Positions 22,672 to 52,863 of a stretch of DNA of 64,000 bases are shown here, in pieces; position 1 is the first letter of the stretch; every line of letters starts with the position of its first letter. The stretch lies in contig NZ_CP083952.1 of NCBI RefSeq assembly GCF_006442545.2, positions 3,279,501 through 3,343,500 of the forward strand, in the 5' to 3' direction. Below the pieces are notes generated by a model that was given only the letters and a program-made list of their open reading frames with translations, had not been told where the DNA came from and made no database searches. The stretch comes from Mesorhizobium sp. B2-1-8. GTDB lineage: Bacteria > Pseudomonadota > Alphaproteobacteria > Rhizobiales > Rhizobiaceae. A program made the position numbers and the translations under genes.

Positions 22672-23063
22672 GTGGGACAGCCGATTTGGCTTGTCGATGC
22701 CTCCATCAGCATTCAGGAGTGGCTTCGCGACACACAACTCCGCGGCATTTCTCACCGAGCAGCAGACTTCATTCGGCATCGGTCACATCGAAATCAGTAT
22801 TGCTTGAACCGGACTGGTCGCCATCATATGGCGCCCTTCGCCGGGGGCTGTCGGTCCCGCATCCCGCCTTACGGCGGCGCTAGGCTGATGCTCCTTCGGC
22901 CGCCCTGTTCAACCGGTCTCAGGGCCACGAACCTGCTCCAGCACCGAACTGACTTGTTTCCGCTTACGGACATTTCGGTGCTTCCGCCTTGTACGCCCTT
23001 TTACATTTGTCAGGAGAGCAGTGCGCTCTCCCGACGGAGAGTCAGAGAAGGGTCGGGTTTTCA
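22672..23063. other. Leader region before ardC, no gene seen
   Basis: The ardC frame is open through here, but the coding pattern only becomes regular at 23119. The region probably contains the promoter of the transfer/maintenance module. Confidence 0.4.
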
Positions 23064-23107
23064 GCGACGGGTTTCAAGCGGGAGGAGAGGCCTCCGGTGC
23101 CCGTCGC
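23064..23107 (+). ncRNA. Structured mRNA leader (radC-motif-like), copy 1
   Basis: Outer stem GCGACGGG/CCCGTCGC encloses an inner stem (23079-23085 with 23091-23097) and the loop AGAGG. The ribosome site GGAG follows the outer stem directly and the ardC ATG is 11 bases on. Copy 2 before the parB-like gene keeps the loop and the outer stem while changing paired bases of the inner stem together. The position before an antirestriction gene fits the published radC RNA motif; the identification is mine by eye. Confidence 0.6.
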
Positions 23108-23118
23108 GGAGAATCGCG

Positions 23119-24081
23119 ATGTCCACTCAGAGCAAACGGGTCCGCGCCGGCGCGGATCGGACGAACCTCTATGACGATATCACTGATAAGATCATCGCCC
23201 AGTTGGAGGCAGGTCATTTCCCTTGGGTTCAGCCGTGGGGGACCGCGGCCGCCAAGGCGCCATTGTCCCTGCCGACGAATGCCAGCACCGGCAGGGCGTA
23301 CAGCGGGATCAATGTGCTTATCCTTTGGGGCGCCGTCATCGAGCACGGCTACCCGACCCAATCCTGGCTCACCTTTCGGCAGGCCGTCTCGCTCGGCGGG
23401 AACGTGAGGAAAGGTGAGCGCGGCATTACTGTTGTTTACGCTGATCGATTTGTCCCTGGCGAGGAGAGAAATCGCGCTGAAGAGACTGGTGACGATGCCA
23501 GGGCGGTGCCCTTCCTCAAGCGCTTCACTGTCTTCAACCTCGAGCAATGTGAAGGGCTGCCCGATGCAATCGCGGCTGCACCTCTTCCGCCGGATGTGGG
23601 ATCGATCGAGCCGCGGGTCAAAGCATTGATCGAGGCCACCGGCATTGAATTCCACATCGGTGGCAACAGAGCCTGGTACATGCCGTCGCACGACCGGATT
23701 CAGGTACCGCCGCCTCAGGCCTTCTTCGAGCCCATCAACTGGCATCGCACGGCGTTGCATGAGCTAGGCCATGCCACCGGTCATCGATCGCGCCTTGCTC
23801 GCGATCTTTCCGGGATTTTTGGCAGCAAGAAATATGCCTTCGAGGAACTGGTAGCCGAAATATGCGCCGCCTTCTCCTGCGCCTCGTTCGGCATTGTTCC
23901 GACAGTTCGGCACGCCGACTACATCGGATCCTGGCTGAAGGTGCTGCGTGAGGATAATCGCGCGATCGTGCGCGCCGCCAGCCGGGCCAGCAAGGCGGCT
24001 GACTGGCTTCTCGGCCATCTGCCTGATGAAACCGCGCTGTCGATTGCCAAGGATCTGGGTAACGACAGGAGGGCGGCATGA
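23119..24081 (+). CDS. ardC: ArdC-like antirestriction protein / zincin metallopeptidase
   Basis: 320 residues from ATG 23119 (MSTQSKRVRAG). N-terminal ssDNA-binding domain (DUF1738; LYDDITDKIIAQLEAGHFPW) and C-terminal zincin domain with HELGHATGH near residue 217 and a downstream glutamate (EELVAEI) as third ligand candidate. ArdC proteins protect incoming plasmid or ICE DNA from restriction in the recipient. Preceded by a conserved hairpin leader; followed by DUF2958 with an ATGA overlap. Confidence 0.9.
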   Translation: MSTQSKRVRAGADRTNLYDDITDKIIAQLEAGHFPWVQPWGTAAAKAPLSLPTNASTGRAYSGINVLILWGAVIEHGYPTQSWLTFRQAVSLGGNVRKGERGITVVYADRFVPGEERNRAEETGDDARAVPFLKRFTVFNLEQCEGLPDAIAAAPLPPDVGSIEPRVKALIEATGIEFHIGGNRAWYMPSHDRIQVPPPQAFFEPINWHRTALHELGHATGHRSRLARDLSGIFGSKKYAFEELVAEICAAFSCASFGIVPTVRHADYIGSWLKVLREDNRAIVRAASRASKAADWLLGHLPDETALSIAKDLGNDRRAA

Positions 24082-38299: not shown

Positions 38300-39172
38300 T
38301 CAGTTGGCGGCTCCGCACAACTGCGACGTCGTCAATCCTGGCGGCACGTTTTCCGTGGGGCCAAATCCGTATTTCGCCATGATGGTGGCGATCGTGCCGT
38401 TGGACATGACCTTGGCCAGCCCCTGATTGTAAAGGTCGCGCAGGTCGCCATCGTCTTTCCTGAACGCGATCGCGATGTAGCTGATCGACTTCTCGTCGGT
38501 CGTGAATGGGCTGGCGCGTTCCAGATCGGGGCTCTTTTTGCCGGCAAGCAGCCCGATCACCGTCGGCGAAGAAAATACCGCGGCGTCGATGCGGCCGGCA
38601 CGCAGTGCCGCGATGTTGGTCTCGATGTCGGGAAACTGCAGGATGCGATCCCCAGGGACGCCCTCGGCGATGGCGTTCTGGATGACGTTGCTGCCGCGGC
38701 CGCCGCCCATGATCGTGTCGGATTTCTTGGCAAGATCCGCATAGCTATGGATCGCCTTGGGGTTGCCGGCGAGTACGATCGCCGCGTCGTCCGACCTCAG
38801 GTCGGGAGCGCCGAAGGCGACCTGCTGGCATCGCGGAGGCGTTATCGACAAGCCGGACGCCACGGCATCGAAACGCCCAGCCATCAAGCCAGGGATCAAT
38901 GCGCCGAACTCGGTGACCTCGAAGTCGATCTGCTTGACGCCGAGATCGGCGAACGCCGCTCTAAGCAGGTCCGGATGCCAGCCGAGCAACTCGCCGGTTC
39001 CTTCCTTCTTGTAGCCCCATGGCGAACGGTTATGGATGCCGATGACGATCCTTCCTTCCTTCAAGACGCGTTCTTTCGTCGTTTCCGCCGCGGCCGGTAG
39101 AACAGATCCAACAATCGCGGCATAGGCGATGCAGGCTAGGCCAATGGCGGCCGATCGGGCTCGAAATTTCAT
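38300..39172 (-). CDS. Amino-acid ABC transporter substrate-binding protein, EhuB-like
   Basis: 290 residues with a signal peptide (IGLACIAYAAIVGSVLPAAAE). SBP family 3 fold: GYKKEGTGELLGWHPDLLRA, VTEFGALIPGLMAGRFDAVASGLSITPPRC, LRAGRIDAAVFSSPTV. It resembles ectoine/hydroxyectoine binding protein EhuB most, but the ligand is uncertain. No permease or ATPase genes are adjacent, so it is an orphan receptor here. It lies beside the Lrp gene in the same direction. Confidence 0.8.
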   Translation of the reverse strand: MKFRARSAAIGLACIAYAAIVGSVLPAAAETTKERVLKEGRIVIGIHNRSPWGYKKEGTGELLGWHPDLLRAAFADLGVKQIDFEVTEFGALIPGLMAGRFDAVASGLSITPPRCQQVAFGAPDLRSDDAAIVLAGNPKAIHSYADLAKKSDTIMGGGRGSNVIQNAIAEGVPGDRILQFPDIETNIAALRAGRIDAAVFSSPTVIGLLAGKKSPDLERASPFTTDEKSISYIAIAFRKDDGDLRDLYNQGLAKVMSNGTIATIMAKYGFGPTENVPPGLTTSQLCGAAN

Positions 39173-39427
39173 CGTGCAGTCCTCCCGTGAGATTGAGTTG
39201 CGCGCAGGCGTTCCGCCTCAGCCGCTCAACGCTACGTTGACGAGCGCCAAGTCGTCAATATAGATGTACAAAATATGTACATAATATTGCGAGCGCAGTA
39301 ATGAGAGGCGCTCTCGCTCGTAGTGCGAGGGCATTACATTTGTGCGTGAATGGCGGTCGAGTTGACGCGGCCCCCAATCTCGCTTCCAGCCGCCGGGCGC
39401 GATGACCGACGCAGAATACCCGGCCGA

Positions 39428-39895
39428 TCAGATAGGCAAGACTTCCGAGCGCTTGACCTGGCCGAGCGCGAAGCTGCTTTCGATGGAAGCGATGTTGTCC
39501 AGCCGCGTCAGCTTGTCCTTGATGAACCGCTCATAAGCCTCGAGGTCGCGCACCACGATGCGCATCAGGTAGTCGCGCTGGCCGGTCATCAGATAACAGT
39601 CGACAACCTCCGGCCAACGCAGCACGGCTTGCGAGAAGCGGTCGAGATCGTCCTCGCGTTGCCGTTCAAGCTTGATCGAGGCGAAGGCGCTGATCGGCAG
39701 GCCAAGCTTCTTCTGGTCGACGACCACGGTATAGCCTTTGATGACCCCGGCGCTCTCCAGGAGCCTGACGCGCCGCGCGCAAGGCGAGGGCGAAAGACCG
39801 ACGGCTTCGGCGAGATCGTTCGTCGTCGCCTTGGCGTTTTTCTGTAGCGCGGCGATGATCTTCAGGTCGATTGCGTCAAGCGCCGGATTTGGCAT
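39428..39895 (-). CDS. Lrp/AsnC-family regulator
   Basis: 155 residues: helix-turn-helix (ALDAIDLKIIAALQKNAKAT, DLAEAVGLSPSPCARRVRLL) and an RAM effector domain (VVDCYLMTGQRDYLMRIVVRD). It is divergent from the AceE-like gene, with a 21-bp palindrome between them, so it likely senses an amino acid and controls the adjoining cluster and itself. Confidence 0.92.
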   Translation of the reverse strand: MPNPALDAIDLKIIAALQKNAKATTNDLAEAVGLSPSPCARRVRLLESAGVIKGYTVVVDQKKLGLPISAFASIKLERQREDDLDRFSQAVLRWPEVVDCYLMTGQRDYLMRIVVRDLEAYERFIKDKLTRLDNIASIESSFALGQVKRSEVLPI

Positions 39896-39917
39896 GTTTC
39901 CCCCGTTTAGGCGTGAC

Positions 39918-39938
39918 TATTGGCTGCGTGAGCCAATA
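39918..39938. promoter_or_regulatory. Palindromic operator between lrp and the AceE-like gene
   Basis: TATTGGCT-gcgtg-AGCCAATA, a perfect 8-bp-arm palindrome 23 bases before the lrp start and 84 bases before the divergent gene. The size suits an Lrp/AsnC dimer. Confidence 0.55.
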
Positions 39939-40021
39939 TCATCGATCTGTTTGGGCAAGAATAGTCACATTCGGAAGATCGAGGCAGCTATCGTTGAGCC
40001 GCGATTTCACAGGAGCCGACG

Positions 40022-42403
40022 ATGACGATCCTTTCCGAGCTTGAGCGCAAGGTTCTGTGGCTGGCTGTGTGGATGATCCATCACGCCAATCATGTCCGAG
40101 GGGCGGAGGACGGCCTCAAGGTCGGGGGCCACCAGGCGTCGTCGGCGTCCGCCTCGACCTTGATGACGGCGCTCTATTTCCAGATTCTGAGGCCGCAGGA
40201 CCGCGTTGCCGTCAAGCCGCATGCCAGCCCAGTCTTCCATGCCATCCAGTATCTGTTCGGCAAGCAGACGCTTGAGCAGCTGCGGAATTTTCGTGGCTAT
40301 CGCGGCGCGCAGTCCTATCCGTCCCGAACCAAGGATATCGACGATGTCGATTTCTCGACCGGTTCGGTTGGACTGGGCGTGGCGCAGACCCTGTTCTCCT
40401 CGCTGGTCCAGGATTATGTCGCGGCAAAAGGCTGGAATGCGGACCAGCCGGAGGGTCGGATGGTCGCTCTTCTCGGCGACGCCGAAATGGATGAAGGCAA
40501 TATATTCGAGGCGCTTCTCGAAGGCTGGAAGCACGGCCTGCGCAACACCTGGTGGGTTGTCGACTACAACAGGCAGAGTCTCGACGCGGTGGTGCGCGAA
40601 GGCCTGTGGCAGCGTTTCGAATCCATCTTTCGCAACTTCGGCTGGGATGTGGTGATCCTGAAACATGGGACATTGCAACAGGCCGCCTTCGAGGAAGAGG
40701 GCGGCGAAAAGCTGCGGTCGTGGATCGATGCATGCCCCAATCAGCTCTATTCCGCGCTGACCTTCCAGGGCGGCGCTGCATGGCGCAGGCGCCTTCTGGA
40801 CGACCTCGGTGACCAGGGACCGGTCACGCGCCTGATCGAGAAGCGCAGCGACGAAGAGCTTGCCGCCCTGATGGCAAATCTCGGCGGCCACGATCTGGGG
40901 AGCATCGTCGATGCCTTCGAGGAAGCGCGCGGGCATGATCGTCCGACCTGCTTCATCGCTTATACGATCAAGGGCTTCGGCCTGCCGCTGGCCGGCCACA
41001 AAGACAATCACGCCGGACTGATGACACCGGCGCAAATGGAAACGCTGCGACAGGGCATGAATGTCCGCGAGGGGCGTGAATGGGACCTGTTCGAGGGCCT
41101 CGCATACGATGAGACCGCGATCCGGTCCTATCTCACATCGGTTCCCTTCGCGCAGGCGGTCCCGCGTCGCCACCAAGCCCCTGCTGTTCCGGTGCCAGCG
41201 CGGATCGGCTTCAGCGCCCAGGCCTCGATGTCGACACAACAGGGTTTCGGGCTTTTGATGCACGAGATCGCCAAATCGGACAGCGACTTTGCAAGCCGTG
41301 TCGTTACCACGTCCCCCGACGTTACGGTGTCGACCAATCTCGGGGCATGGGTGAACAGGCGCGGTCTGTTCGCGCGCGCCGGGCAGGCGGACGTGTTCCG
41401 CGAGGAGCGCATACCCTCTACCTTCAACTGGACGTTTTCGCCGTCGGGACAGCATTTCGAATTGGGCATCTCGGAGATGAACCTTTTCACGATGCTTTCG
41501 GCGCTGGGCTTGTCACACTCGCTTCACGGGGAGCGCCTGCTTCCGGTCGGAACGCTCTACGATCCCTTCATCGAGCGCGGCCTCGATGCGCTCAACTATG
41601 CCTGCTACCAGGACGCCCGCTTTGTTCTGGCGGCGACGCCCTCAGGCGTGACGCTGGCGCCCGAAGGCGGAGCGCATCAGTCGATCGCCACGCCGTTGAT
41701 CGGCATGGCGCAGGACGGCCTGGCGACGTTCGAGCCGGCCTATGCCGACGAGCTGGCAGTCATCCTGCGTTGGGCATTCGACTACATCCAGCGTTCGGGG
41801 GAGGGCGAGCCCGACGCCCACACCTGGCTCCGTGAACAGACCGGAGGTTCGGTCTATTTGAGGCTTTCCACACGATCGATCGAACAGCCAGTCCGGCGGA
41901 TGGAGGATCAGCTGGCGCGCGACATCGTCGATGGCGCCTACTGGTTGCGCAAACCTGGGCCGAACGCTGACGTGGTGATCGCCTATTCGGGGGCTGTCGC
42001 GCCGGAGGCGGTACAGGCGCTGGGGTTGATGGCCGGCGACCGGCGCGATGTCGGCCTTCTGGCCGTGACCTCGGCCGATCGGCTGAACGCCGGATGGTCA
42101 GCCGCGGCCCGGGCGCGCCAGTATGGCCATCCGCGCGCCTCCAGTCATGTCGAGCGCCTGTTGGCCGGTCTCCCGGCCTCATGCGTCATCGTGACGGTGT
42201 TGGACGGGCACCCCGCGACTCTGGCCTGGCTGGGATCGGTGCATGGTCATCGCACGCGTGCGCTGGGCGTCGAGCATTTTGGCCAGACCGGTACGATCGC
42301 GGATCTCTACCGGCATTACGGTATCGATGCGCAAGGTATCATGGCCGCGGCGCAGTCGGTTTCGGCCGGCAGGCCGCTGCGGCACCTTGGCTCCGCCGCC
42401 TGA
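40022..42403 (+). CDS. AceE-like homodimeric ThDP enzyme (annotated as transketolase/PDH E1)
   Basis: 793 residues, with the layout of pyruvate dehydrogenase E1 AceE rather than true transketolase. HANHVRGAEDGLKVGGHQASSAS is a typical AceE start; ThDP/Mg motif in LLGDAEMDEGNIFEALLEG...DYNRQ; pyrimidine-binding domain around residues 400-600 (STFNWTFSPSGQHFELGISEMNLF has the catalytic Glu). No E2 or E3 gene is near. The lone E1-like enzyme probably acts on a 2-oxo acid formed or used by the neighbouring amino-acid enzymes. Lrp-type control is likely. Confidence 0.85.
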   Translation: MTILSELERKVLWLAVWMIHHANHVRGAEDGLKVGGHQASSASASTLMTALYFQILRPQDRVAVKPHASPVFHAIQYLFGKQTLEQLRNFRGYRGAQSYPSRTKDIDDVDFSTGSVGLGVAQTLFSSLVQDYVAAKGWNADQPEGRMVALLGDAEMDEGNIFEALLEGWKHGLRNTWWVVDYNRQSLDAVVREGLWQRFESIFRNFGWDVVILKHGTLQQAAFEEEGGEKLRSWIDACPNQLYSALTFQGGAAWRRRLLDDLGDQGPVTRLIEKRSDEELAALMANLGGHDLGSIVDAFEEARGHDRPTCFIAYTIKGFGLPLAGHKDNHAGLMTPAQMETLRQGMNVREGREWDLFEGLAYDETAIRSYLTSVPFAQAVPRRHQAPAVPVPARIGFSAQASMSTQQGFGLLMHEIAKSDSDFASRVVTTSPDVTVSTNLGAWVNRRGLFARAGQADVFREERIPSTFNWTFSPSGQHFELGISEMNLFTMLSALGLSHSLHGERLLPVGTLYDPFIERGLDALNYACYQDARFVLAATPSGVTLAPEGGAHQSIATPLIGMAQDGLATFEPAYADELAVILRWAFDYIQRSGEGEPDAHTWLREQTGGSVYLRLSTRSIEQPVRRMEDQLARDIVDGAYWLRKPGPNADVVIAYSGAVAPEAVQALGLMAGDRRDVGLLAVTSADRLNAGWSAAARARQYGHPRASSHVERLLAGLPASCVIVTVLDGHPATLAWLGSVHGHRTRALGVEHFGQTGTIADLYRHYGIDAQGIMAAAQSVSAGRPLRHLGSAA

Positions 42404-42529
42404 CGATCGATCACGCATCCCCGGCCGGCTCGTTCGATAGAAGGCCGTCAATACCGGAATTCCTTGAGGGCAGATGTCAGCCGTCGGCGCCATCCTCCTC
42501 CGCTGCGAGAAAGCGTGGGGGAGATGAGG

Positions 42530-43468
42530 ATGGTTGGGGCCGGCGATCTTATGAGCCGAGAAACGCTGCGGTCGTCGGTGGGGACGGCAGCGGCGATTGC
42601 GCATCACGGCGAACTCATCCAGGGCGTCTTCAAGGATGATGGCGGGCGCCTTCATCGCGGGCTCGTCACACTGCCGATTGCCGGCTTGAAATCGGAGGCG
42701 AGCTTTTCCAGGAGCGACGGCGATGCAATCGTTGTCCAACCCGATCATAAGGTCAAGGCGTCGGCAGCCGCGCGGCTCACGCTCGATTTCTTGAACGCCA
42801 CCGGCGGTGGCGAGCTGACACTTCGAAGCTCGATTCCTGTGGGGCACGGCTACGGCTCATCGACGGCGGACGTTGTTGCTTCCATTCGCGCTGTCGCCGC
42901 AGCCCTCAAGGTCCAGTTGCGGCCCTCGAGCATCGGGCGTCTGGCCGTTGCCGCCGAGCGCGCCAGCGACGCGATCGCCTTCGACGATCACGCGGTCCTG
43001 TTCGCGCAACGCGAAGGCACGGTGATCGAGAATTTCGGAGGCTCGCTGCCGCCGCTGCTTCTGGTCGGGTTCAAGGCAAATGGCGGCGCTCCCGTCGACA
43101 CATTGCAGCTGCCGCCGGCGCGCTACGACAGTGCCGAAATCCAGGAATTCGGCGTGCTTCGGGCGCTGGTGGCGCGGGCGGTTCGTCTTCAGGATCCATA
43201 TCTTCTCGGACGCGCCGCCTCGGCCAGTGCCTTGATCAGTCAACGGCACTTGCCGAAGCAGGGTTTCGACGAGATCGCCGAAATCGCCAGGCGGGCCGGG
43301 GCGTGCGGGGTGCAAGTCGCCCATAGCGGTTCGTTGTTCGGTCTGATTTTCGATCTTTTCGCATCGAATCTGAAGCGGCGGGCAGCCCTGGTCGCGCAGC
43401 AGATAAGACGCGCCGGCTTCAAGGATGTCGAGGTCCATCTGGTCAACGCGGAGGGCTGGACATGGTGA
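42530..43468 (+). CDS. GHMP kinase resembling L-threonine kinase (PduX type)
   Basis: 312 residues from ATG 42530 (GGGGGAG 6 bases upstream; ATG 42524 and 42551 are alternatives). GHMP hallmarks: substrate segment AAIAHHGELIQGVF like the GELVQG of PduX, ATP loop SIPVGHGYGSSTADV, and the C-terminal AHSGSLFGLIFD. PduX phosphorylates L-threonine to O-phospho-L-threonine. The stop overlaps the start of the PLP-fold gene (ATGGTGA), so both are made together. Confidence 0.78.
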   Translation: MVGAGDLMSRETLRSSVGTAAAIAHHGELIQGVFKDDGGRLHRGLVTLPIAGLKSEASFSRSDGDAIVVQPDHKVKASAAARLTLDFLNATGGGELTLRSSIPVGHGYGSSTADVVASIRAVAAALKVQLRPSSIGRLAVAAERASDAIAFDDHAVLFAQREGTVIENFGGSLPPLLLVGFKANGGAPVDTLQLPPARYDSAEIQEFGVLRALVARAVRLQDPYLLGRAASASALISQRHLPKQGFDEIAEIARRAGACGVQVAHSGSLFGLIFDLFASNLKRRAALVAQQIRRAGFKDVEVHLVNAEGWTW

Positions 43469-44535
43469 GCCTCGATGTGGACTATTTCAGGGACCTTGAG
43501 ACCCCGCGCCTTGCTCGACTGGCACCAAATCTCGTGGCCGCGGCTTTTCCTCTGATGAAGCTTATGCCGGCCCGCTACATTCTGGATCGGGCAGCGTCGA
43601 ATGGTGAACTGAAGGCAGGCTCCCATATTGTCGAGACGACGTCCGGCACGTTCGGCATGGCGGTGGCGCTGCTCGCGGCGGCGCGTGACTATCGCCTGAC
43701 GCTCGTCACCGCTTCAACACTGATCGATACCAAATACAAAGCTCGCCTGGAGCGTATCGGCGCCACGGTCATCGCGCTTGACGATCCGCGCGGCGACGGC
43801 AACCAGCCTGGCCGGCTCAAGCTCCTGCAGGAAATCCTGGCCAAGGAGCCGGACGGCTTCTGGACCCGCCAATACGACAGTCCCGGTAACTGGCTCGCCT
43901 ATGCGCGGCTGGCTGAACTTTTCATCCGGGCAGTGGGCAGGGTTGACTGCCTGGTCGGCTGCGTCGGTACGGGCGGCTCGCTATGCGGCACAGCATCCTT
44001 TCTGCGAACGGTGTTTCCCCATCTGACGGTATTCGCCGTCGATACCCATCGCAGCATTCTGTTCGGGCAGCCCGTCGGCAAACGCATGCTGCGGGGCTTA
44101 GGCAACAGCGTCCTGCCGAAAAACGTAAGACATGAACTTGTCGACGAGATCCATTGGGTCGGCGCCTATCCCGCGTATATGGCCGCGCACCGCTTGCTGC
44201 GCGAGCAGGGAATCTTCATGGGGCCGACCAGCGGCGCCGCCGCGTTGGTGGCGCAATGGGCTGCAACCACGCTTCCGGACGCGCAGGTCGCGGTCATCAT
44301 GCCTGACGAAGGCCATCGCCATGTCGAGACCGTCTACAATGACGATTGGCTCCGGTCCCTGCCTGGCTGGCCCTGCAAGGAACTGCCTGAGCCGAGGACG
44401 CTGACGACAATCGCACCGGCCGCGGAGACGCAATGGACACGCTTCCTTTGGTTGCGTCGCAGTCTCGACGATGTGCTGAAAGCGCAGGCACCGGATGAGG
44501 TGCCGCCGGCTATCGGCGCTGTGGAAAATCTATGA
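43462..44535 (+). CDS. Cysteine-synthase-like PLP-fold protein lacking the usual lysine
   Basis: 357 residues, fold type II. The phosphate-binding glycines are present (GCVGTGGSLCG) and the substrate loop is THIV-ETTSGTFG-like (VETTSGTFGM, where cysteine synthases have TSGNTG). At the site where the family has NPGGSVKDR the sequence is MPARYILDRA: Leu41 replaces the Schiff-base lysine; the nearest lysine is Lys33. Either another lysine holds PLP or the protein is not a PLP enzyme. It is translationally coupled to the kinase. An O-phosphothreonine-using beta-replacement role is a guess by analogy with 2,3-diaminobutyrate pathways. Confidence 0.75.
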   Translation: MVSLDVDYFRDLETPRLARLAPNLVAAAFPLMKLMPARYILDRAASNGELKAGSHIVETTSGTFGMAVALLAAARDYRLTLVTASTLIDTKYKARLERIGATVIALDDPRGDGNQPGRLKLLQEILAKEPDGFWTRQYDSPGNWLAYARLAELFIRAVGRVDCLVGCVGTGGSLCGTASFLRTVFPHLTVFAVDTHRSILFGQPVGKRMLRGLGNSVLPKNVRHELVDEIHWVGAYPAYMAAHRLLREQGIFMGPTSGAAALVAQWAATTLPDAQVAVIMPDEGHRHVETVYNDDWLRSLPGWPCKELPEPRTLTTIAPAAETQWTRFLWLRRSLDDVLKAQAPDEVPPAIGAVENL

Positions 44536-45867
44536 AACGAGATCCAGCCCGCTTCTGTCGAGCCAGCGCCAGGCGTCGTCCGTCGTCTGGAAGATCTGAT
44601 CGTGTTCGTTCGATCCAGCGGACCGATCGAGGTCCTTGAGACCGCTGGCTGTCACGACGGCCACGACGCGGTCTGTGGCTGCGATGATACCTTGGTCCTT
44701 GAGCGTCGAAATGGCGATTAGCGGCGTGACCGACGCCAGTTCGGCAAAGATACCTTCGTCCCGCGCAAGCCGTTCCTGCATCGCGATCAGCCCGTGATTG
44801 TTGACGGGGACGGCGTGCCCGCCGGAGTCGCGCAGAGCCTTAAGCGCCTGAAAGGTGCTGCGCGGGGTGCCGATCGAAACGGCAAGGCTGTCGAAGGGCA
44901 TTTTGCGTTCACTCAAGGCATCGGCGCCGCTGGCGAGGGCGTCCGCCAAGGACCCGTGCACCTCTGCGGCGACGAGACGGGGCAGCCGCGTGATCGACCC
45001 TTGCGCGTACAGCTCGCAAAAGCCGGCCCACACGCCCGACAATGCATCGCCATAGCAGACCGGCAGGACGCACCAGTCCGGTGCCGTGCCATCCGATTGC
45101 TCGACGATCTCGTAGGCAATCGTCTTGTAGCCCTCGATGCCGAGTGGATGGCTGCCGACGACTGGACCGTGATAGGGCGAGGCGATGAACCAGTCGTAGC
45201 GGGCAGACGCCTGTTCCAGCATGGACCATCGGTCCATTTTGCTGACCAGGGGCAGGACCGTCGCGCCATATTTTCGGATCTGCGCCAGCATCGCGCCGGC
45301 GGAGTCCGCGAAAGTGGTGACGACGCATTTGAGCCCGGCTCTAGCCGCGTAAGCCGCCAGCGAAGCGCCGGCGTTTCCCGATGAGGCGGTCGCGACGATC
45401 TTCGCGCCGCGTGCGCGCGCCACGCTGACCGCGATGGTCGAGAAGCGGTCCTTGTGCGACCAGGTCGGGTTTCGGCCTTCATCCTTGATTGCAAGATCCG
45501 GCACGCCGAGAAACGAGCCGATACGCGGCGCCGCAAGCAAGGGTGTCAAGCCCTCGCCGAGGCTCACGGCATCCGCGGCTGTGCAAGGCAGCATGTGCGC
45601 AAAGCGCCATAGCGAGCGCGCGGCAGTGGCGCCGTCCAAAAGGGGAGGGTGCGGGGCGACGTAAACCGGCCGAAGGTTTGCCGGCGCGGTGTCTCGGCAC
45701 CGCGCGCACCCTTTGGAGTCGATGGTGACGTTGGCGGGATAGGCAGCGCCGCATCGGATGCAGGCGAACTCCAGGACCCGGCTTTTGTCCATATCGGGAC
45801 GGCTGGTCTCGCCTGAGGAGTGCGCGGACATGTCGTGCGCGAGGTCGCGAAACGGCCGGCTCGCCAT
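44530..45867 (-). CDS. Threonine-synthase-like PLP enzyme
   Basis: 445 residues from ATG 45867 with AAGGAA upstream; a longer frame begins at 45912. A zinc-ribbon N-terminus (FACIRCGAAYPA...CARCRD) leads to the fold type II core with the PLP lysine intact in NPTWSHKDR and ASSGNAGASLAAYAARAG. It converges on the previous gene with a 6-base overlap of the ends. It could make or degrade threonine or an analog from a phosphorylated substrate. Its divergent neighbour is an XRE regulator. Confidence 0.82.
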   Translation of the reverse strand: MASRPFRDLAHDMSAHSSGETSRPDMDKSRVLEFACIRCGAAYPANVTIDSKGCARCRDTAPANLRPVYVAPHPPLLDGATAARSLWRFAHMLPCTAADAVSLGEGLTPLLAAPRIGSFLGVPDLAIKDEGRNPTWSHKDRFSTIAVSVARARGAKIVATASSGNAGASLAAYAARAGLKCVVTTFADSAGAMLAQIRKYGATVLPLVSKMDRWSMLEQASARYDWFIASPYHGPVVGSHPLGIEGYKTIAYEIVEQSDGTAPDWCVLPVCYGDALSGVWAGFCELYAQGSITRLPRLVAAEVHGSLADALASGADALSERKMPFDSLAVSIGTPRSTFQALKALRDSGGHAVPVNNHGLIAMQERLARDEGIFAELASVTPLIAISTLKDQGIIAATDRVVAVVTASGLKDLDRSAGSNEHDQIFQTTDDAWRWLDRSGLDLVS

Positions 45868-45945
45868 GGCTATTCCTTGTCCAGGAAACGATGAATTCGC
45901 TGGTTGTTTCAAACAGCCAACAGCGCCGCTGTCAATGCGGAATGT

Positions 45946-45972
45946 GCACTATAGTGTGTCGCACCATAGTGC
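45946..45972. promoter_or_regulatory. Tandem palindromic operator between the threonine-synthase-like gene and xre
   Basis: GCACTATAGTG at 45946-45956 (core CACTATAGTG perfect) and GCACCATAGTGC at 45961-45972, centres 15 bases apart, in the divergent promoter region. It fits an autoregulated XRE repressor or activator. Confidence 0.5.
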
Positions 45973-45994
45973 GCGTCGTAGCATCCGTTGTTTG

Positions 45995-46261
45995 ATGAAA
46001 CTTCGTGGGGTTTTTGGCCTGAACGTGCAGCGGCTTCGGAGAGAGAGAAAACTCTCTCAGGAGCAGTTGTCTTTCGTTTCGGGCCGCACGCGAGCCTATA
46101 TCAGCAGCGTCGAAGCCGGGAGGCGCAACGCCACCCTGGATACAGTCGAAATTTTGGCCAAGGCATTGAATGTCGACCCGCAAGAGTTGGTTTCGGCAAG
46201 CCCGGCCAATAAGCGAGCTATTCGGGTGACGAAACCTGCCGCTTCAAAGACGGCCGGCTGA
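45995..46261 (+). CDS. XRE-family helix-turn-helix regulator
   Basis: 88 residues from ATG 45995; an in-frame ATG at 45935 would cover the operator. HTH: GLNVQRLRRERKLSQEQLSFVSGRTRAYISSVEAGRR-like core, then LDTVEILAKALNVDPQEL. It is divergent from the threonine-synthase-like gene with paired palindromes between, so it is the probable local switch. Confidence 0.85.
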   Translation: MKLRGVFGLNVQRLRRERKLSQEQLSFVSGRTRAYISSVEAGRRNATLDTVEILAKALNVDPQELVSASPANKRAIRVTKPAASKTAG

Positions 46262-46426: not shown

Positions 46427-47155
46427 ATGGAGAACGAAATTGTTGTTGACCTCTTTGCGGCGATCTCGAAGATCGACACTGCGCTCTCGGCTGATGCAAT
46501 CCTTCAAGAGTTCCGCTCAGCCCTGGCACGCTACGGATTGCGCAGTTTTCTGATCACCGGCCTGCCCGTGCCGCACGATACAGACTGGCAGCGGGAAATC
46601 CTGGGCGATGGCTGGCCTCTCGACTGGTATCGTCGCTACGTGTCCGAGGATCACTTTTTGCACGATCCTTGCGTTGCGCAGTGCCGGCACTCGCCAGAGC
46701 CCTTCCTGTGGCGCGAGCTTCCCGCCGCAAAGCTGTCGACACGCGCGAAGCTGGTGATGGACGAGGCAGCTGAATTCGGGATGAGAGAAGGTATCTGTGT
46801 CCCCATACACGTGCCTCTTTCGGGTCCCAGTGTCGTCACCGCGGCGAGCGACGGGATGGAAGTTGCGCCACGCGAAATGCCCGTTATCGAGACGCTTTGC
46901 GTGCACACTTTTCGGAGCCTCTCGGCGCTGGGAACGCCGGGCGATGGCGATGAGCCCATGCCTTTGACGGCGCGTGAGCGCGAACTTCTGGAGTGGAGCG
47001 CACAAGGCAAGTCCACCGACGACATCGCTTGTATCCTGGGCGTCACCAGGAACACGGTCGAAAGCCATCAGCGCAACATTCGAGGAAAGCTCGACGCGAT
47101 AAACGTGTCCCATGCCATCGTCAAGGCGCTGCGACGGCAGGAAATCCAGATTTAG
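46427..47155 (+). CDS. LuxR-family quorum-sensing regulator
   Basis: 242 residues: N-terminal autoinducer-binding domain (DWPLDWYRRYVSEDHFLHDP-type region, WRELPAAKLSTRAKLVMDEA, GICVPIHVPLSGP) and C-terminal GerE helix-turn-helix (LTARERELLEWSAQGKSTDDIACILGVTRNTVESH). The luxI gene follows 66 bases later in the same direction, so this is its likely receptor. Confidence 0.92.
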   Translation: MENEIVVDLFAAISKIDTALSADAILQEFRSALARYGLRSFLITGLPVPHDTDWQREILGDGWPLDWYRRYVSEDHFLHDPCVAQCRHSPEPFLWRELPAAKLSTRAKLVMDEAAEFGMREGICVPIHVPLSGPSVVTAASDGMEVAPREMPVIETLCVHTFRSLSALGTPGDGDEPMPLTARERELLEWSAQGKSTDDIACILGVTRNTVESHQRNIRGKLDAINVSHAIVKALRRQEIQI

Positions 47156-47221
47156 CAATACCTGAATACCGTCATACGTACCGCAAGTCCGTTTTCCTAC
47201 GACCCTGCGCCTGGAGGCGTC

Positions 47222-47845
47222 ATGGTTCGTATGCATTTGGTCACCTGGGATAACAGGAAGCACTACAGGAAAGTTCTGGAACGCTACTTTCGCATAAGGT
47301 ACGACATTTACGTCAAGCAGAGGCGGTGGCGCGCCGTCGCCCGGCCCATCAACATCGAGATCGACGCCTTCGACAACGAGCATGCGCTTTATGTCCTGGC
47401 GCTTGACACCAACGGCAAGATCGTCGGCGGCTCCCGTCTCGTGCCGACGCTGGAGCCGCATCTGATGAGCGAGGTCTTCCCGGTTCTCGCCGGCGGCACG
47501 CCGCCGAGAGCGGCTGATATTTTCGAATGGACGCGTTTCTTCGTCGATCCATCGCTTCGCACGCACGGCGCCTCGTCGCCGATCGCCGGCTTCGTTCTCT
47601 GTGGTCTGCTCGAGACGGCTCAAAGGCTGGGGATTCGACAGATCAGCGTGGTATGCGAAACATTCTGGCCAAAACGCCTGCGCGCGCTTGGATGGACGCT
47701 CGCCGAACTCGGCGACGTTCTCGAGCATCCGGACGGCGACATTATAGCGCTGCTGATTGACGTCACGCCTGAGGCTATTGAGCAGACGCGGCGCGCTTAT
47801 GGCATAACCGGTGTTATACTTGCGGAGATACCCACCGCCAGCTGA
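47222..47845 (+). CDS. Acyl-homoserine-lactone synthase (LuxI family)
   Basis: 207 residues with the family's invariant positions: RIRYDIYVKQRRW, EIDAFDNEHALYVLALD, GGSRLVPT, FEWTRFFVDP. GGAGG lies 5 bases before ATG. It would make an AHL signal from an acyl carrier and S-adenosylmethionine. Signal length cannot be told from sequence. Confidence 0.92.
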   Translation: MVRMHLVTWDNRKHYRKVLERYFRIRYDIYVKQRRWRAVARPINIEIDAFDNEHALYVLALDTNGKIVGGSRLVPTLEPHLMSEVFPVLAGGTPPRAADIFEWTRFFVDPSLRTHGASSPIAGFVLCGLLETAQRLGIRQISVVCETFWPKRLRALGWTLAELGDVLEHPDGDIIALLIDVTPEAIEQTRRAYGITGVILAEIPTAS

Positions 47846-48520: not shown

Positions 48521-49952
48521 CACTACTTTGGCGGATTTTTAGTTCTGGGAGCGTTTTGAGGATTCCCAAGAGCGGTTTTGCGTGATTCATGAGAGGTCGG
48601 CTGTTGGAGGGCCGGCCATGAACAGGGATTGGCAAGTCGATCTGGAGCAGTGGCTTGAGCCGTTCGTCTCGGCGTTGAGGCACAAGACGCGTGCGCGGAT
48701 GTGTCCGGCCTATATTGCTGGGCTGATTGGCCTTGGGGATCGCAAGAGCATCCAACCGATGGCGGCGCGCGACGCAGGCGTCAATTATGACCAGCTGCAC
48801 CACTTCATCGCGAGCGGCGTGTGGGATGCTGCGCCGCTGGAGAAGGTGCTACTTGCGGAGGCCGACAGACAAGTTGGCGGGAACGATGCGTGGCTGATCG
48901 TGGACGACACCGCGCTCCCCAAGAAGGGGCGCCACTCGGTCGGCGTCGCGCCGCAATATGCCTCGGCGCTTGGCAAGAACGCCAACTGCCAGACGCTGGT
49001 GTCGCTGACGCTGGCCTCTGGCGAAGTGCCGGTCATGGTGGGGCTGCGGCTGTTTCTGCCCGAGAGCTGGACTTCCGATCCCGCCCGGCTCGACCGTGCC
49101 GGTGTGCCCGCGGACCATCGTGCCTACAGGACCAAGCCCGAAATCGCGCTGGCCGAGATCGACCGGGCTCGCGCAGCCGGCCTACGCTTTGGCTGCGTGC
49201 TCGCCGATGCCGGATATGGCTTGAGCGCCCCCTTCCGGCAGGCGCTCACCGAGCGCGGCCTTACCTGGGCCGTCGGTATCCCGTTCAAGCAGAAGGTCTA
49301 TCCCGCCGACGTGGCAATGATCTTTCCCCTTGCCGGACGCGGCCGTCCGCGCCAGCGGCATATCCCCGATGTGAAGTCGATGACCGCGCAGGCGATGCTG
49401 GAGACAGCCCCATGGCGTGCGGTCAGTTGGCGGCGTGGCACCAAAGGCCGCCTCTCGGCGCGCTTCGCCGCTGTCCGTGTCCGGGTTGCAGATGGCCCAC
49501 CCCAGCGCATCCGCGACATGGGCGCTCAGCATCTGCCCGGCGAGGAGGTCTGGGTGATCGGCGAGCACCGCTCGACCGGCGAGCGCAAATACTACCTCTC
49601 CAACTTGCCCGCCGACACCCCGCTCAAGCAGATCGCAGGCGCCATCAAGGCGCGCTGGGTCTGCGAACAGGCGCATCAGCAGCTCAAGGAGGAACTTGGC
49701 CTCGACCACTTCGAGGGGCGCTCATGGACGGGCCTGCACCGGCACGCGCTGATGACTATGATCGCCTACGCTTTCCTGCAATCTCGCCGTCTTAAACAAG
49801 CGGGAGGGGGAAAAAAGAATCCTTGGCCCGCCGCCCCAACCGAGCCTACCCGCCGTCAGGCAAGCCATCCTCACCGCGCTCGCGCAGCCGCCCCCAATCC
49901 GTTGTCCCCACTGCCGCAGAACCCTCTCTGCTAAAGATCTGCCAAAGTAGTG
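48521..49952 (+). mobile_element. IS701-family element, copy 1 (1432 bp)
   Basis: Ends CACTACTTTGGC(G/A)GAT..TTTAG inverted at both sides, flanked by the 4-bp duplication TTAG (48517-48520 and 49953-49956). One transposase gene with a recoded C-terminal extension. Related to but clearly diverged from copy 2 at 61177. Confidence 0.88.
48618..49934 (+). CDS. IS701-family transposase, copy 1
   Basis: 438 residues in frame 0 (MNRDWQVDLEQWLEPF). DDE core motifs: WLIVDDTALPKKG, FGCVLADAGYG, and LKEELGLDHFEGRSWTG with the final Glu. After the A6 run at 49811-49816 frame 0 reads as proline-rich noise, whereas the +1 frame gives KRILGPPPQPSLPAVRQAIL and then RCPHCRR, ending with TAG at 49948-49950 inside the terminal repeat. 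Copy 2 conserves that same +1 sequence, so the working protein probably ends there. Confidence 0.9.
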   Translation: MNRDWQVDLEQWLEPFVSALRHKTRARMCPAYIAGLIGLGDRKSIQPMAARDAGVNYDQLHHFIASGVWDAAPLEKVLLAEADRQVGGNDAWLIVDDTALPKKGRHSVGVAPQYASALGKNANCQTLVSLTLASGEVPVMVGLRLFLPESWTSDPARLDRAGVPADHRAYRTKPEIALAEIDRARAAGLRFGCVLADAGYGLSAPFRQALTERGLTWAVGIPFKQKVYPADVAMIFPLAGRGRPRQRHIPDVKSMTAQAMLETAPWRAVSWRRGTKGRLSARFAAVRVRVADGPPQRIRDMGAQHLPGEEVWVIGEHRSTGERKYYLSNLPADTPLKQIAGAIKARWVCEQAHQQLKEELGLDHFEGRSWTGLHRHALMTMIAYAFLQSRRLKQAGGGKKNPWPAAPTEPTRRQASHPHRARAAAPNPLSPLPQNPLC

Positions 49953-50208
49953 TTAGGCCCCATATCAGGCGAGACATGCGTGTAGTCATTGTCTGCGATG
50001 AATGCGGAGCGTCAGGGCCGATATGCATTGATCAGGACGCCGCCGCTGAAAGCTGGAATAGCCGTCCTTGGAAAGGCAACCAGCGGCCTGCATCATCGAG
50101 CTATCGGTAGACACCAAAAACATATTTAAGTTTTATTGGATTGAATGATCAGGCAATATAATATCCCTCCTCAAACGGCGAATGTGTGTCGCATGGGGAG
50201 GCACTATA

Positions 50209-51615
50209 GTGACTAATGTGACGACTGAGCTTCGCGTTCCAGCGGCGCAGTACATTCGCATGTCAACAGAGCACCAGCGCTATTCTCTTGAAAACCAGAT
50301 CCCTGCCATTGCGGAGTATGCCGAGACACGGGGCTTCGCTATTGTCCAGACCTATTCCGATGCCGGTAAGAGCGGCTTGAGCTTGAAAGGGAGAGAGGGA
50401 CTCAAGCAGTTGTTGGGCGACGTGGTGACTGGCAGGCGCAGTTATTCGGCAGTTTTGGTTCTGGACGTTAGCCGGTGGGGCCGCTTTCAGGATGCTGATC
50501 AATCCGCACATTATGAGTTCCTGTGTCGAGATGCAGGGGTTGCGGTGGAATACTGCGGCGAGCCGTTCGAGAACGACGGCAGTATGGTTTCGTCAATCGT
50601 GAAGAATCTAAAGCGGGTGATGGCGGGCGAGTTCAGCCGTGAGCTCTCGGCCAAAGTCTCAAGGGCGCAGAAGCAGCAGGCCAGCCTTGGATTTAAGCAA
50701 GGCGGCCAAATGCCTTATGGAACAAGACGAATGCTCGTTAGCAAAGATCGGGAACCTCGATTTCTCCTCGGACCGGGCGAACAAAAGGGGCTAGACACCG
50801 ATCGTGTTGTCTTTGTGCCGGGCCCAGGCGAGGAGATCGGGATCGTCCGACGCATTTTCCGGATGTTCGTTGACCAAAGACGAAGCATGAGCAGCATTGC
50901 GAAAAAGCTAAACGAGGAAGGTGTGCCTTCAACAGACGGTTGGCGGTGGACATTGGGGCGGGTCAGAACCGTTCTGAAAAGCGAGTTGATGATCGGATAT
51001 TATGTCTTCAACCGAACCACAGGGCGATTGAGAGGGCCGTCTCGACCAAATCCTCCGAACCTATGGGTCAGAACACGGGTCATGGAGCCGATTGTGGACT
51101 CAAGACAGTTCGCAAAGGCCCAACGGGAGATGGGGTACAAGCGCGGGTACGGCTATGCGAAGTCTGACATGGTCAAAGGCCTTCGTCGGCTTTTGCGAGA
51201 AAAAAAGAAGCTCTCTTCGGACATCATTGACGTCTGCACCTACACGCCTTGCGCACGATCTTATGGAGAGCGTTTTGGAGGCCTACGGGCTGCCTACGCC
51301 ATCGTGGGCTACGAGTGCCGCTGGCGACCTGGGCCGCGTCGCAGATTTTCGGATGAGGAGCTCCTTGATGGCATCCGGCGGCTACACACTGCGTTCGGCC
51401 ATGTTACCATTGCGCTCATCAATGCCGACCCAGACCTACCACGGGCTTTCGTCTTCATGCGGAGATTTGGCACGATGACTAGAGCCTATGGGCTGGCAGG
51501 CTTTCCAACTACTAAGGCAGAGGCATGTTCTGCCGCGCGAAAGAGGGCTAGCCCGCGCCTTCGAGAGGGATTGCGATACGAACCGTCCAGGCCGCGCAGC
51601 GAACGAACCAGATAG
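50209..51615 (+). CDS. Large serine recombinase (resolvase plus recombinase domains)
   Basis: 468 residues from GTG 50209 (GGGGAGG 7 bases upstream; ATG 50182 also in frame). Resolvase N-domain with the nucleophile in YIRMSTEHQRYSLENQ and SDAGKSGLSLKGREGL; recombinase domain with MPYGTRRML and KKLNEEGVPSTDGWRWTLGR. The C-terminus lacks an evident cysteine zinc ribbon. The start codon lies at the edge of a CACTATAGTG palindrome. It may mobilise or invert the local accessory block. Confidence 0.88.
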   Translation: MTNVTTELRVPAAQYIRMSTEHQRYSLENQIPAIAEYAETRGFAIVQTYSDAGKSGLSLKGREGLKQLLGDVVTGRRSYSAVLVLDVSRWGRFQDADQSAHYEFLCRDAGVAVEYCGEPFENDGSMVSSIVKNLKRVMAGEFSRELSAKVSRAQKQQASLGFKQGGQMPYGTRRMLVSKDREPRFLLGPGEQKGLDTDRVVFVPGPGEEIGIVRRIFRMFVDQRRSMSSIAKKLNEEGVPSTDGWRWTLGRVRTVLKSELMIGYYVFNRTTGRLRGPSRPNPPNLWVRTRVMEPIVDSRQFAKAQREMGYKRGYGYAKSDMVKGLRRLLREKKKLSSDIIDVCTYTPCARSYGERFGGLRAAYAIVGYECRWRPGPRRRFSDEELLDGIRRLHTAFGHVTIALINADPDLPRAFVFMRRFGTMTRAYGLAGFPTTKAEACSAARKRASPRLREGLRYEPSRPRSERTR

Positions 51616-51636
51616 CCCGCGAGGGTAGCAACGCCT

Positions 51637-52863
51637 GTGAACATTGATTCACCTCGGACGATACAGTCGCTAGATGTTCTTCTTGGCAAGCGGAAGATCG
51701 GCACGATTGTGCGCAGCCCCGTCTATGCCTTCAACTTTACGCAGCAATATCGGGAAGCGGGCGGTTTTCCAATTCTCAGCCTCTCGTTTAGGTCAGCAAA
51801 TGGCGAACTCGGGAAAGACCCGAAGCCGCTTGCGGGCATCCTACCCGCGTTCTTCGCCAATCTCCTGCCCGAGGGTAAGCTGCGCGAAGCAATGGAGAAG
51901 CATCACCAGGGCAGCGTAAGGCGACGCAATGACTTCGATCTCTTGGCGGTGCTTGGTGCCGATGTTTCCGGGGCAGTGCAAGCCTTGCCCAGTGATGGTC
52001 CTGTCGTGAACGAAAAGCCCAAAGCTCATTTCTCTCTGGCCGGAATGCAAATGAAGCTGTCCGTTGCCAAAAAGGGGGGAGAAGGAGGCGCCTTTACCCT
52101 GCCGAAGGACGGCGAACTGGGTCAGTACATCGCAAAATTTCCACCCGAGACGTTTCCGGGGGTTTCGGAGAATGAGTTTGCCAATCTGGCCCTTGCCGCA
52201 GCTATCGGCATGGATGTGCCTGACCGCGAGTTGGTCGAGAGGTCCGACCTGCAGAACGTTCCCGAGGAACTCAACCCCCAATCCGGGGGACCGCTTCTTC
52301 TGGTCAGACGCTTTGATCGAGGCGCGAACGGCCAAAGGATCCACATTGAGGATTTCGCTCAAGTCTTCGGCGTCCCTCCCTCGCGCAAATATGACGACGC
52401 TGCCTTTCACCAAATCGCGGCTGTCTTGAACGAGGCTGTGTCCCCTAGTGCGGCTCTCGAATTCGTCCGTCGCTTAACTTTGGCAGCTTTGACCGGCAAT
52501 GGTGACATGCATCTGAAGAATTGGTCGCTGATCTATCCTGGAGGTGGCGATAGACCGGCTCTTGCCCCGATCTACGATGTGCTATCGACCGTTCCCTACA
52601 TCCCAACCGACGCCATGGCGCTCTCCCTCGGTCGGCAGCGGTCGTTCAAGGCGCTTACGGCGTCGCGGTGGAAAGCGTTCGCAAACCGCGCCAGGCTGCC
52701 CGAGGCCGCCGTGCTTGAAGCGGTTGTTGAGACAGTCGCACTGGTCAACCAGCATTGGTGGCGTTTGCCGGAGCGCGAGATAGTCCCTGCAACGATCCTG
52801 GAACGCATCGACGAGCACATTAAGGTCATGACTCCGATTTTGACCACCCGCGACGGAAAGTGA
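51637..52863 (+). CDS. hipA: HipA-family serine/threonine kinase toxin
   Basis: 408 residues from GTG 51637. Couple_HipA-type N-domain (VLLGKRKIGTIVRSPVYAF), then the kinase: HFSLAGMQMKLSVAKK, PETFPGVSENEFANLALA, catalytic GNGDMHLKNWSL and metal-binding APIYDVLST. HipA proteins halt growth by phosphorylating targets such as aminoacyl-tRNA synthetases. The cognate HipB antitoxin normally lies just upstream; here that position is taken by the serine recombinase and no small HTH gene is visible. Confidence 0.9.
   Translation: MNIDSPRTIQSLDVLLGKRKIGTIVRSPVYAFNFTQQYREAGGFPILSLSFRSANGELGKDPKPLAGILPAFFANLLPEGKLREAMEKHHQGSVRRRNDFDLLAVLGADVSGAVQALPSDGPVVNEKPKAHFSLAGMQMKLSVAKKGGEGGAFTLPKDGELGQYIAKFPPETFPGVSENEFANLALAAAIGMDVPDRELVERSDLQNVPEELNPQSGGPLLLVRRFDRGANGQRIHIEDFAQVFGVPPSRKYDDAAFHQIAAVLNEAVSPSAALEFVRRLTLAALTGNGDMHLKNWSLIYPGGGDRPALAPIYDVLSTVPYIPTDAMALSLGRQRSFKALTASRWKAFANRARLPEAAVLEAVVETVALVNQHWWRLPEREIVPATILERIDEHIKVMTPILTTRDGK

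Follow-up and report, generated by a model that had tools for sequence, protein, structure and literature searches.

The question raised by this stretch of Mesorhizobium sp. B2-1-8 DNA is what a kinase and two pyridoxal 5'-phosphate (PLP) fold enzymes, encoded side by side among several regulators, might make, and under whose control. The window analysed was the whole stretch of 64,000 nucleotides, positions 3279501-3343500 of the 6.4-Mb contig. An earlier note on this DNA had described an unrecognised Lrp-controlled cluster of these enzymes together with an AceE-like enzyme, an EhuB-like binding protein and an XRE regulator. All of the genes that it named were present with open frames at or near the positions that it gave, and directly after the XRE gene lay a LuxR and LuxI pair absent from its gene list. 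The core is a PduX-like kinase, an SbnA/CysK-like fold-II PLP enzyme (hereafter the PLP enzyme), a threonine-synthase-like PLP enzyme (TS), XRE, LuxR and LuxI. With a probability of roughly 0.6, it is read here as a quorum-controlled cluster making a non-protein amino acid that its fuller forms re-import and degrade. The cluster is mobile among soil and root-nodule bacteria, and it looks undescribed.

Core genes and their recurrence

The kinase gene (42530..43468, + strand, 312 amino acids) has its likely start at 42530, as annotated for the ortholog on plasmid pMLb. The start/stop coupling reported in the earlier note was confirmed, since the PLP gene (43462..44535, +), if it starts at its ATG at 43462, overlaps the kinase stop by 7 bases. 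TS follows on the opposite strand (44530..45867, -; open frame 44530-45912, likely start 45867), and then, on the + strand, the small XRE regulator (about 45995..46261, 88 amino acids, Pfam HTH_3), which is conserved in relatives, LuxR (46427..47155; PF03472 90.8 bits, GerE 56.6 bits) and the LuxI-type acyl-homoserine-lactone synthase (47222..47845; PF00765 76.1 bits). By Pfam domains the last two are an autoinducer synthase adjoining a regulator with autoinducer-binding and LuxR-type helix-turn-helix domains.

Relatives were collected with a PLP enzyme search seeded by an alignment of 22 relatives, and 80 of the 144 relatives in the species-genome collection were taken. There were 53 alphaproteobacterial loci, 42 of them fully flanked, meaning that the sequence extended 1 kb or more upstream of the PLP gene and 8.5 kb or more downstream. 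With matches of more than 60 bits counted, all 42 had the kinase, 41 TS, 39 LuxR, 38 XRE and 37 LuxI, and the binding protein, AceE and Lrp were found in 18, 17 and 16, respectively; the counts include matches that are not whole orthologs (a TS fragment in locus L047, a split TS in L013, distant LuxR matches in L061 and L063). The kinase adjoins the PLP gene in 42/42 loci, an adjacency that exceeds chance. The earlier note had proposed looking for the same gene set in other genomes; it was found in many loci, and because it recurs elsewhere the genes do not co-occur only here.

Of 146 same-genus genomes, 50 had a PLP match at E 1e-60 or better; identity was at least 65% in 26 of them and only 38-49% in the other 24. 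TS at E 1e-60 was found in 26 of the 146, as was LuxI at 43% identity or more, the other listed near-full-length LuxI matches being at most 39% identical and a LuxI fragment in genome G731 (90% identical) standing outside the count. The carriers of the PLP ortholog, TS and LuxI are the identical 26 genomes, which are not independent events because the genes are linked and mobile. The distance matrices of kinase, PLP enzyme, TS, LuxR and LuxI were pairwise correlated with r 0.83-0.94 (43 loci). Among the records of the plasmid collection, 19 carried TS at an identity of at least 57%, and every one of them had a PLP match of at least 52%; 5 further plasmid TS records at 39-55% identity were left out of the kinase check. 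The closest named kinase relatives are from Mesorhizobium, a copy of the cluster lies on plasmid pMLb of M. japonicum MAFF 303099, and conjugation genes flank several copies.

The loci fall into types by what accompanies the core. Type A has kinase, PLP enzyme, TS, XRE, LuxR and LuxI, then often a GNAT gene, an AstE/AspA-type hydrolase like DoeB, an Ehu-like ATPase, two permeases and EhuB, and is complete on a Bosea vaviloviae plasmid (L127). Type B holds an ATP-binding cassette (ABC) uptake system, TS, an M24 hydrolase and an IclR regulator between the PLP and XRE genes, and type C is like type B but with a tripartite tricarboxylate transporter. Uptake genes were present in 29 of the 42 fully flanked loci (ABC ATPase plus permease in 21, tripartite in 8), and linked genes in the same loci were GNAT (10), AstE/AspA (8), M24 (15) and IclR (14), the M24 hydrolase occurring in 15/15 loci with tripartite genes or a second binding protein. 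The copy in the window is of type A, and the response regulator and EhuA/D/C-like genes that form its right arm are displaced to about 67 kb beyond LuxI (L119:11705-14614; G000:C1:3394805-3397714); the displaced EhuA/D/C-like genes are 73-83% identical to their counterparts in the type-A relative L032.

Predicted promoter sites and regulation

A palindrome lies about 55 to 72 bases before the start in luxI promoters; its core reads CCGGAATTCCGG in type A, and types B and C show a CCAGATCTGG-like form. In the window, the luxI-promoter site search places this predicted lux box at 47157..47176 (+). A lux-box profile was built from luxI promoter sites only, with identical sites excluded, and was run across each whole locus. 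In 34 of 37 loci (21/23 type A, 13/14 type B/C), the best kinase-promoter site ranked within the top 3 positions; its spacing was near-fixed, in most cases about 90 or 125 bases upstream of the start taken for the kinase. For the predicted lux box of the window kinase (AATACCGGAATTCCTTGAGG, 42450..42469, +), 2 of the 13922 positions in the stretch tested score as high or higher, itself included, and the spacing is conserved in relatives. The site core varies by lineage, luxI and kinase promoters changing together. Some top-scoring positions fall inside genes, for example within the kinase. The promoters of TS, XRE, AceE, Lrp, EhuB and Ehu genes score below 0 with the same profile apart from four loci, namely the TS/XRE interval in L012 and L018 (3.7), the region before GNAT in L029 (4.9) and the XRE match in L056 (10.1), which is divergent from the kinase and shares its intergenic interval. 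An ungapped 18-base comparison of luxI and kinase promoters had also been tried; it was too weak, and the profile test was used instead.

Annotated plasmid loci on which the profile had not been trained gave kinase-promoter ranks, with the luxI site counted, of 2 in L136 (score 12.7), 3 in L096 (12.6) and 4 in L127 (3.3), and a site is also seen in L095 and L128, both close to training copies. No good kinase-promoter site was found in L134 (best -9.1), for which LuxR and no LuxI are listed. As a separate observation, the Paracoccus saliphilus locus L136 keeps its lux-box-like site although its kinase and LuxR genes have no PLP gene listed between them. The control consisted of 25 loci labelled as argininosuccinate lyase (ASL) type or without Lux genes, in which the kinase promoter was in the top 3 in 4/25. 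Two of the four, L060 (12.5) and L047 (4.7), belong to the TS/LuxI group of the PLP tree described below and may be relics; L064 and L078 score 0.2 and -5.1, and ASL-type loci reach 0.2 at most.

Between TS and XRE lies a two-box operator, CACTATAGTG-TGTCG-CACCATAGTG in the window (45947..45971, +). The pattern CACTATAGTG-5-CACYATAGTG occupies this interval in 43 of the 47 loci having an XRE match, and elsewhere there were only 2 matches, both strands of a single site in L061, a locus without an XRE match.

Linkage and the predicted sites point to LuxR/LuxI as the probable core regulator. LuxI would make an acyl-homoserine lactone, with which LuxR would bind the predicted lux boxes before luxI, as feedback, and before the kinase-PLP operon, while XRE may bind the two-box operator and so control the levels of both itself and the divergent TS gene. 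LuxR/LuxI systems given for Mesorhizobium in the available portion of PMC5977203 are mrlI1, mrtI/mrtR, mtqI/mtqR/mtqS and traI1/traR; they belong to the same protein families and the same genus, and that portion links none of the synthases to the present cluster. In the model strain and Lotus symbiont M. japonicum MAFF 303099, the cluster assigns one LuxR/LuxI pair a defined predicted target, namely an amino acid pathway of two enzymes preceded by predicted lux boxes.

Enzymes, proposed product and alternatives

The kinase was compared with a spread sample of 60 of 111 records annotated as L-threonine kinase, PduX among them, and three matches so annotated were obtained (28-32% identity over 83% of the query, E 7e-9 to 3e-6), in agreement with the PduX likeness proposed earlier. 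The structural model (predicted local distance difference test, pLDDT, 93.1) has GHMP kinases as its best matches (homoserine kinase, IspE, mevalonate kinase). Sequence and model together show homology to PduX with a GHMP fold, and from its sequence the enzyme is presumed to be an L-threonine kinase. Apart from the cluster, kinase relatives on plasmids of Rhizobium leguminosarum (L135:8112-10691) and R. jaguaris (L137:5643-9550) have a nucleotidyltransferase or cytidylyltransferase-family gene nearby and are followed directly by a cytidine diphosphate (CDP)-alcohol phosphatidyltransferase gene, as if in a CDP-threonine route to a threonine phospholipid.

SbnA, an O-phosphoserine-dependent enzyme of staphyloferrin B synthesis, is the best NCBIfam and PDB sequence match of the PLP enzyme (TIGR03945 195.5 bits, cut-off 349.95). 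The first four Foldseek matches of the model (pLDDT 91.5) are SbnA entries, and with VIA-align SbnA ties with cystathionine beta-synthase and others. The lysine (K33) and a QY pair align with those of SbnA, whereas SbnA has TSGNLG in place of TSGTFG and the PLP gene is paired with a PduX-like kinase. In 30 PLP relatives, lyase-associated ones included, M32-K33, S61-G62, R118, Q137-Y138 and S257 are invariant and each position of the motif ETTSGTFG is at least 90% conserved, which suggests that they share a phosphorylated acceptor. TS falls under both cut-offs consulted (135.8 bits against 167.1 for thrC; 204.7 against 303 for PRK08197), and other TS matches in the same genome are 28-31% identical pieces.

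The earlier note had likened the kinase and PLP enzyme to the 2,3-diaminobutyrate logic of actinomycete peptides. The analogy holds for the first two steps, because the sister group of the PLP enzyme sits in kinase/PLP/ATP-grasp/ASL cassettes, found in actinomycetes, a cyanobacterium and acidobacteria; ligase, lyase and peptide synthetase were not found here. A tree was built from 67 of the 79 PLP sequences. A single branch (support 100/99) divides it into a group of 44 rows, of which 38 have TS and LuxI, 3 have TS and 3 have neither, and a group of 23, of which 19 have ASL/ATP-grasp genes, 1 has these plus TS and 3 have neither. The window PLP enzyme is 42-48% identical to 11 cassette members from other phyla and the kinase 42-45% to 4 of 6 (Terrihalobacillus 35%, Streptomyces olivaceus 31%), and in both settings the kinase is adjacent to a cysteine-synthase-like PLP enzyme. 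TS, XRE, LuxR/LuxI and uptake genes, however, stand here in place of the ligase, lyase and peptide synthetase. The ATP-grasp and ASL proteins of the cassette locus L067 gave no tblastn match in the window or L119-L121 at E 1e-6, and no peptide synthetase was seen among 19 scanned window proteins or in the annotated stretches of Mesorhizobium, Aminobacter and Bosea relatives, no genome-wide search having been made. ASL-type cassettes adjoin peptide synthetases in two Streptomyces plasmids. Gausemycins contain 2,3-diaminobutyrate and their cluster has cysteine synthase and argininosuccinate lyase genes (PMC12471526, in the portion available); likewise in partial texts, dabA-C are listed for a friulimicin-like cluster (PMC11117518), and in the mureidomycin cluster an npsG homolog with a proposed role in diaminobutyrate synthesis was inactivated (PMC4572928).

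By analogy with these families, and not as given in the texts just cited, the route would run from threonine through O-phosphothreonine and an aspartate adduct to diaminobutyrate. The kinase would phosphorylate L-threonine, and the PLP enzyme would eliminate the phosphate and add an amine nucleophile at the beta carbon, giving a beta-amino-substituted 2-aminobutyrate. This product might be an N-linked amino acid adduct, with aspartate as the first guess for the nucleophile because the sister cassette contains a lyase, or free 2,3-diaminobutyrate. TS, acting with the ABC or tripartite transporter and, in relatives, the M24 or AstE/AspA-type hydrolase, would form an import and breakdown arm. With aspartate as the nucleophile, the adduct would be a tricarboxylic diamino acid, which would fit the tricarboxylate-type transporter of type C. 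A tentative and more detailed version, which we consider rather improbable as it stands, is that crowded cells turn threonine via O-phosphothreonine into an opine-like, beta-N-linked tricarboxylic diamino acid as a private currency, re-imported and degraded mainly by carriers of the element and forming a shared resource round roots; such a product would possibly serve as a metal chelator. Rhizolotine, an opine-like compound of Lotus nodules, was a lead only, and no paper in the open-licence literature searched contained the word.

Several observations weigh against a quorum-controlled cluster that makes, re-imports and degrades its product. ABC or tripartite uptake genes were absent from the flanks examined in 13 of the 42 loci, and the ABC genes of the window genome are, as noted, distant from the core; a search of the window and the following 59.5 kb turned up no GNAT gene, relatives of the hydrolase elsewhere in that genome reach only 40-43% identity, and no exporter was shown as conserved. 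The PLP enzyme scores under the SbnA cut-off. On the regulatory side, 9 of the 46 luxI-promoter loci were excluded from the profile test (7 with weak luxI sites, 2 without a kinase), two annotated loci lacking a close LuxI, L099 and L124, also reach ranks 3 and 4, with low scores of 2.8 and 2.1, the ungapped promoter comparison outscored every one of 12 shuffles in just 13 of 43 loci, and the distance-matrix correlation was run without a control gene from outside the cluster. Within plasmid gene tables that are incomplete, the kinase-PLP locus of M. loti NZP2037 has LuxR and no LuxI listed, that of Bosea vestrisii likewise lacks a listed LuxI, and Agrobacterium pusense has the kinase-PLP pair followed 2 to 9 kb on by a tripartite transporter, TS, M24 and IclR genes, neither LuxR nor LuxI being listed there.

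The A. pusense arrangement, and the uptake systems, hydrolases, IclR regulator and TS typical of catabolic operons, would fit a wholly catabolic cluster, in which an imported plant or microbial hydroxy-amino acid or acylated diamine is activated by the kinase and eliminated by the PLP enzymes under density control. We hold this to be quite unlikely: the kinase-PLP pair is what the cluster shares with cassettes lying next to peptide synthetases in other phyla, it has a predicted lux-box promoter of its own, and on Bradyrhizobium elkanii plasmid pUSDA31-1 it stands between transposases with no uptake, TS, hydrolase or IclR genes listed within 10 kb (incomplete gene table). Somewhat better placed, though still improbable, is a cluster yielding free 2,3-diaminobutyrate, with the aspartate adduct cleaved by a housekeeping ASL encoded elsewhere and the product exported as an inhibitor or signal. 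The sister PLP group is accompanied by a dedicated lyase and ATP-grasp ligase, and an Azospirillum oryzae stretch has Lrp, kinase, PLP, ATP-grasp, DMT transporter and ASL genes with no peptide synthetase listed; yet ASL/ATP-grasp genes were in the flanks of only 1 of the 42 alphaproteobacterial loci (L063), and their absence from nearly the whole TS/LuxI group suggests that the product need not involve them.

LuxR/LuxI might also control conjugative transfer of the surrounding element and be a mere passenger beside metabolic genes, as the conjugation genes beside several copies would allow; traI1/traR are listed for symbiosis island transfer in M. loti R7A in the portion of PMC5977203 available. 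The shared presence of LuxI, TS and PLP in the same genomes, the predicted lux boxes at the kinase promoter and the tracking of TS and kinase distances by those of LuxR and LuxI make this a very remote prospect. Quorum-controlled synthesis of a non-protein amino acid is accordingly preferred as a reading, and it would mean, as the gene sets suggest, that the phosphothreonine-plus-PLP logic of peptide-synthetase neighbourhoods apparently also serves, on mobile elements carried by plant-associated bacteria, for purposes other than peptide synthesis. Three of the ingredients have precedents of their own, namely quorum-controlled biosynthesis, PduX-like kinases and SbnA-like enzymes; no description of the kinase-PLP pair combined with TS, XRE and uptake genes on rhizobial mobile elements, or of its chemistry, was found among the papers listed in searches of the open-licence PubMed Central (PMC) literature.

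Lrp-AceE module and neighbouring genes

Before the kinase lie the AceE-like thiamine diphosphate (ThDP) enzyme (40022..42403, +, 793 amino acids), its divergent partner, an Lrp/AsnC-type regulator (39428..39895, -; Pfam AsnC_trans_reg), and the EhuB-like family 3 solute-binding protein (38300..39172, -). The single unit that the earlier note had drawn around all of these was not retained, AceE being found in genomes without the cluster and the uptake system of EhuB lying beside the core in some relatives only. AceE is present in 25 of the 26 cluster carriers and also in 32 of the 120 other same-genus genomes (Fisher p 2e-11, computed ignoring the relatedness of the genomes); the association is real, and AceE was rejected as a core gene since 32/120 non-carriers hold it. 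Lrp as a master switch was likewise not upheld, because Lrp goes with the AceE gene and the pair stands without the core, in Cereibacter and Azospirillum. It also occurs next to a related kinase in Mesorhizobium INR15 and P. saliphilus. Lrp-AceE is a looser, separate module. On the P. saliphilus plasmid (L136:7870-13574), the gene order is Lrp, AceE, kinase, LuxR, LuxI, the kinase being followed by LuxR without a listed PLP gene.

The profile match of the AceE-like protein starts at AceE position 81, the preceding region being missing, and its score is far under the TIGR00759 cut-off (202.2 against 859.9 bits); no second AceE match was found in the same genome at E 1e-5. The N-terminal part of AceE binds E2, and with this region missing, a non-oxidative use of a 2-oxo acid, for example 2-oxobutyrate from TS, is therefore possible.

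The uptake genes recall the ectoine genes EhuABCD and DoeA/DoeB. EhuB is above its cut-off in the window (TIGR02995, 206.3 against 190.9 bits) and in L032, and in type-A relatives, L032 and L127 among them, EhuA/C/D-like and DoeB-like genes adjoin the core. However, EhuA, EhuC and EhuD are not beside the window EhuB, the ATPase, permeases and hydrolase of L032 are all under the cut-offs, and no gene named EutB or EutC is present in the annotated relatives.

A second kinase-PLP type was seen on Cupriavidus and Paraburkholderia symbiotic plasmids and one Mesorhizobium plasmid (L100, L122, L123 and L133), with no LuxR/LuxI listed in the stretch; EhuB and M24 genes lie near the pair in L100 and L123, and an AstE/AspA gene also in L100. 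Elsewhere in the window, DDE_5-type transposases are encoded at 48582-49934, soon after LuxI, and at 61244-62515, a serine recombinase followed by a HipA-like protein at 50182-52863, and an ArdC-type anti-restriction protein with a zincin-like metallopeptidase domain at 22672-24081.

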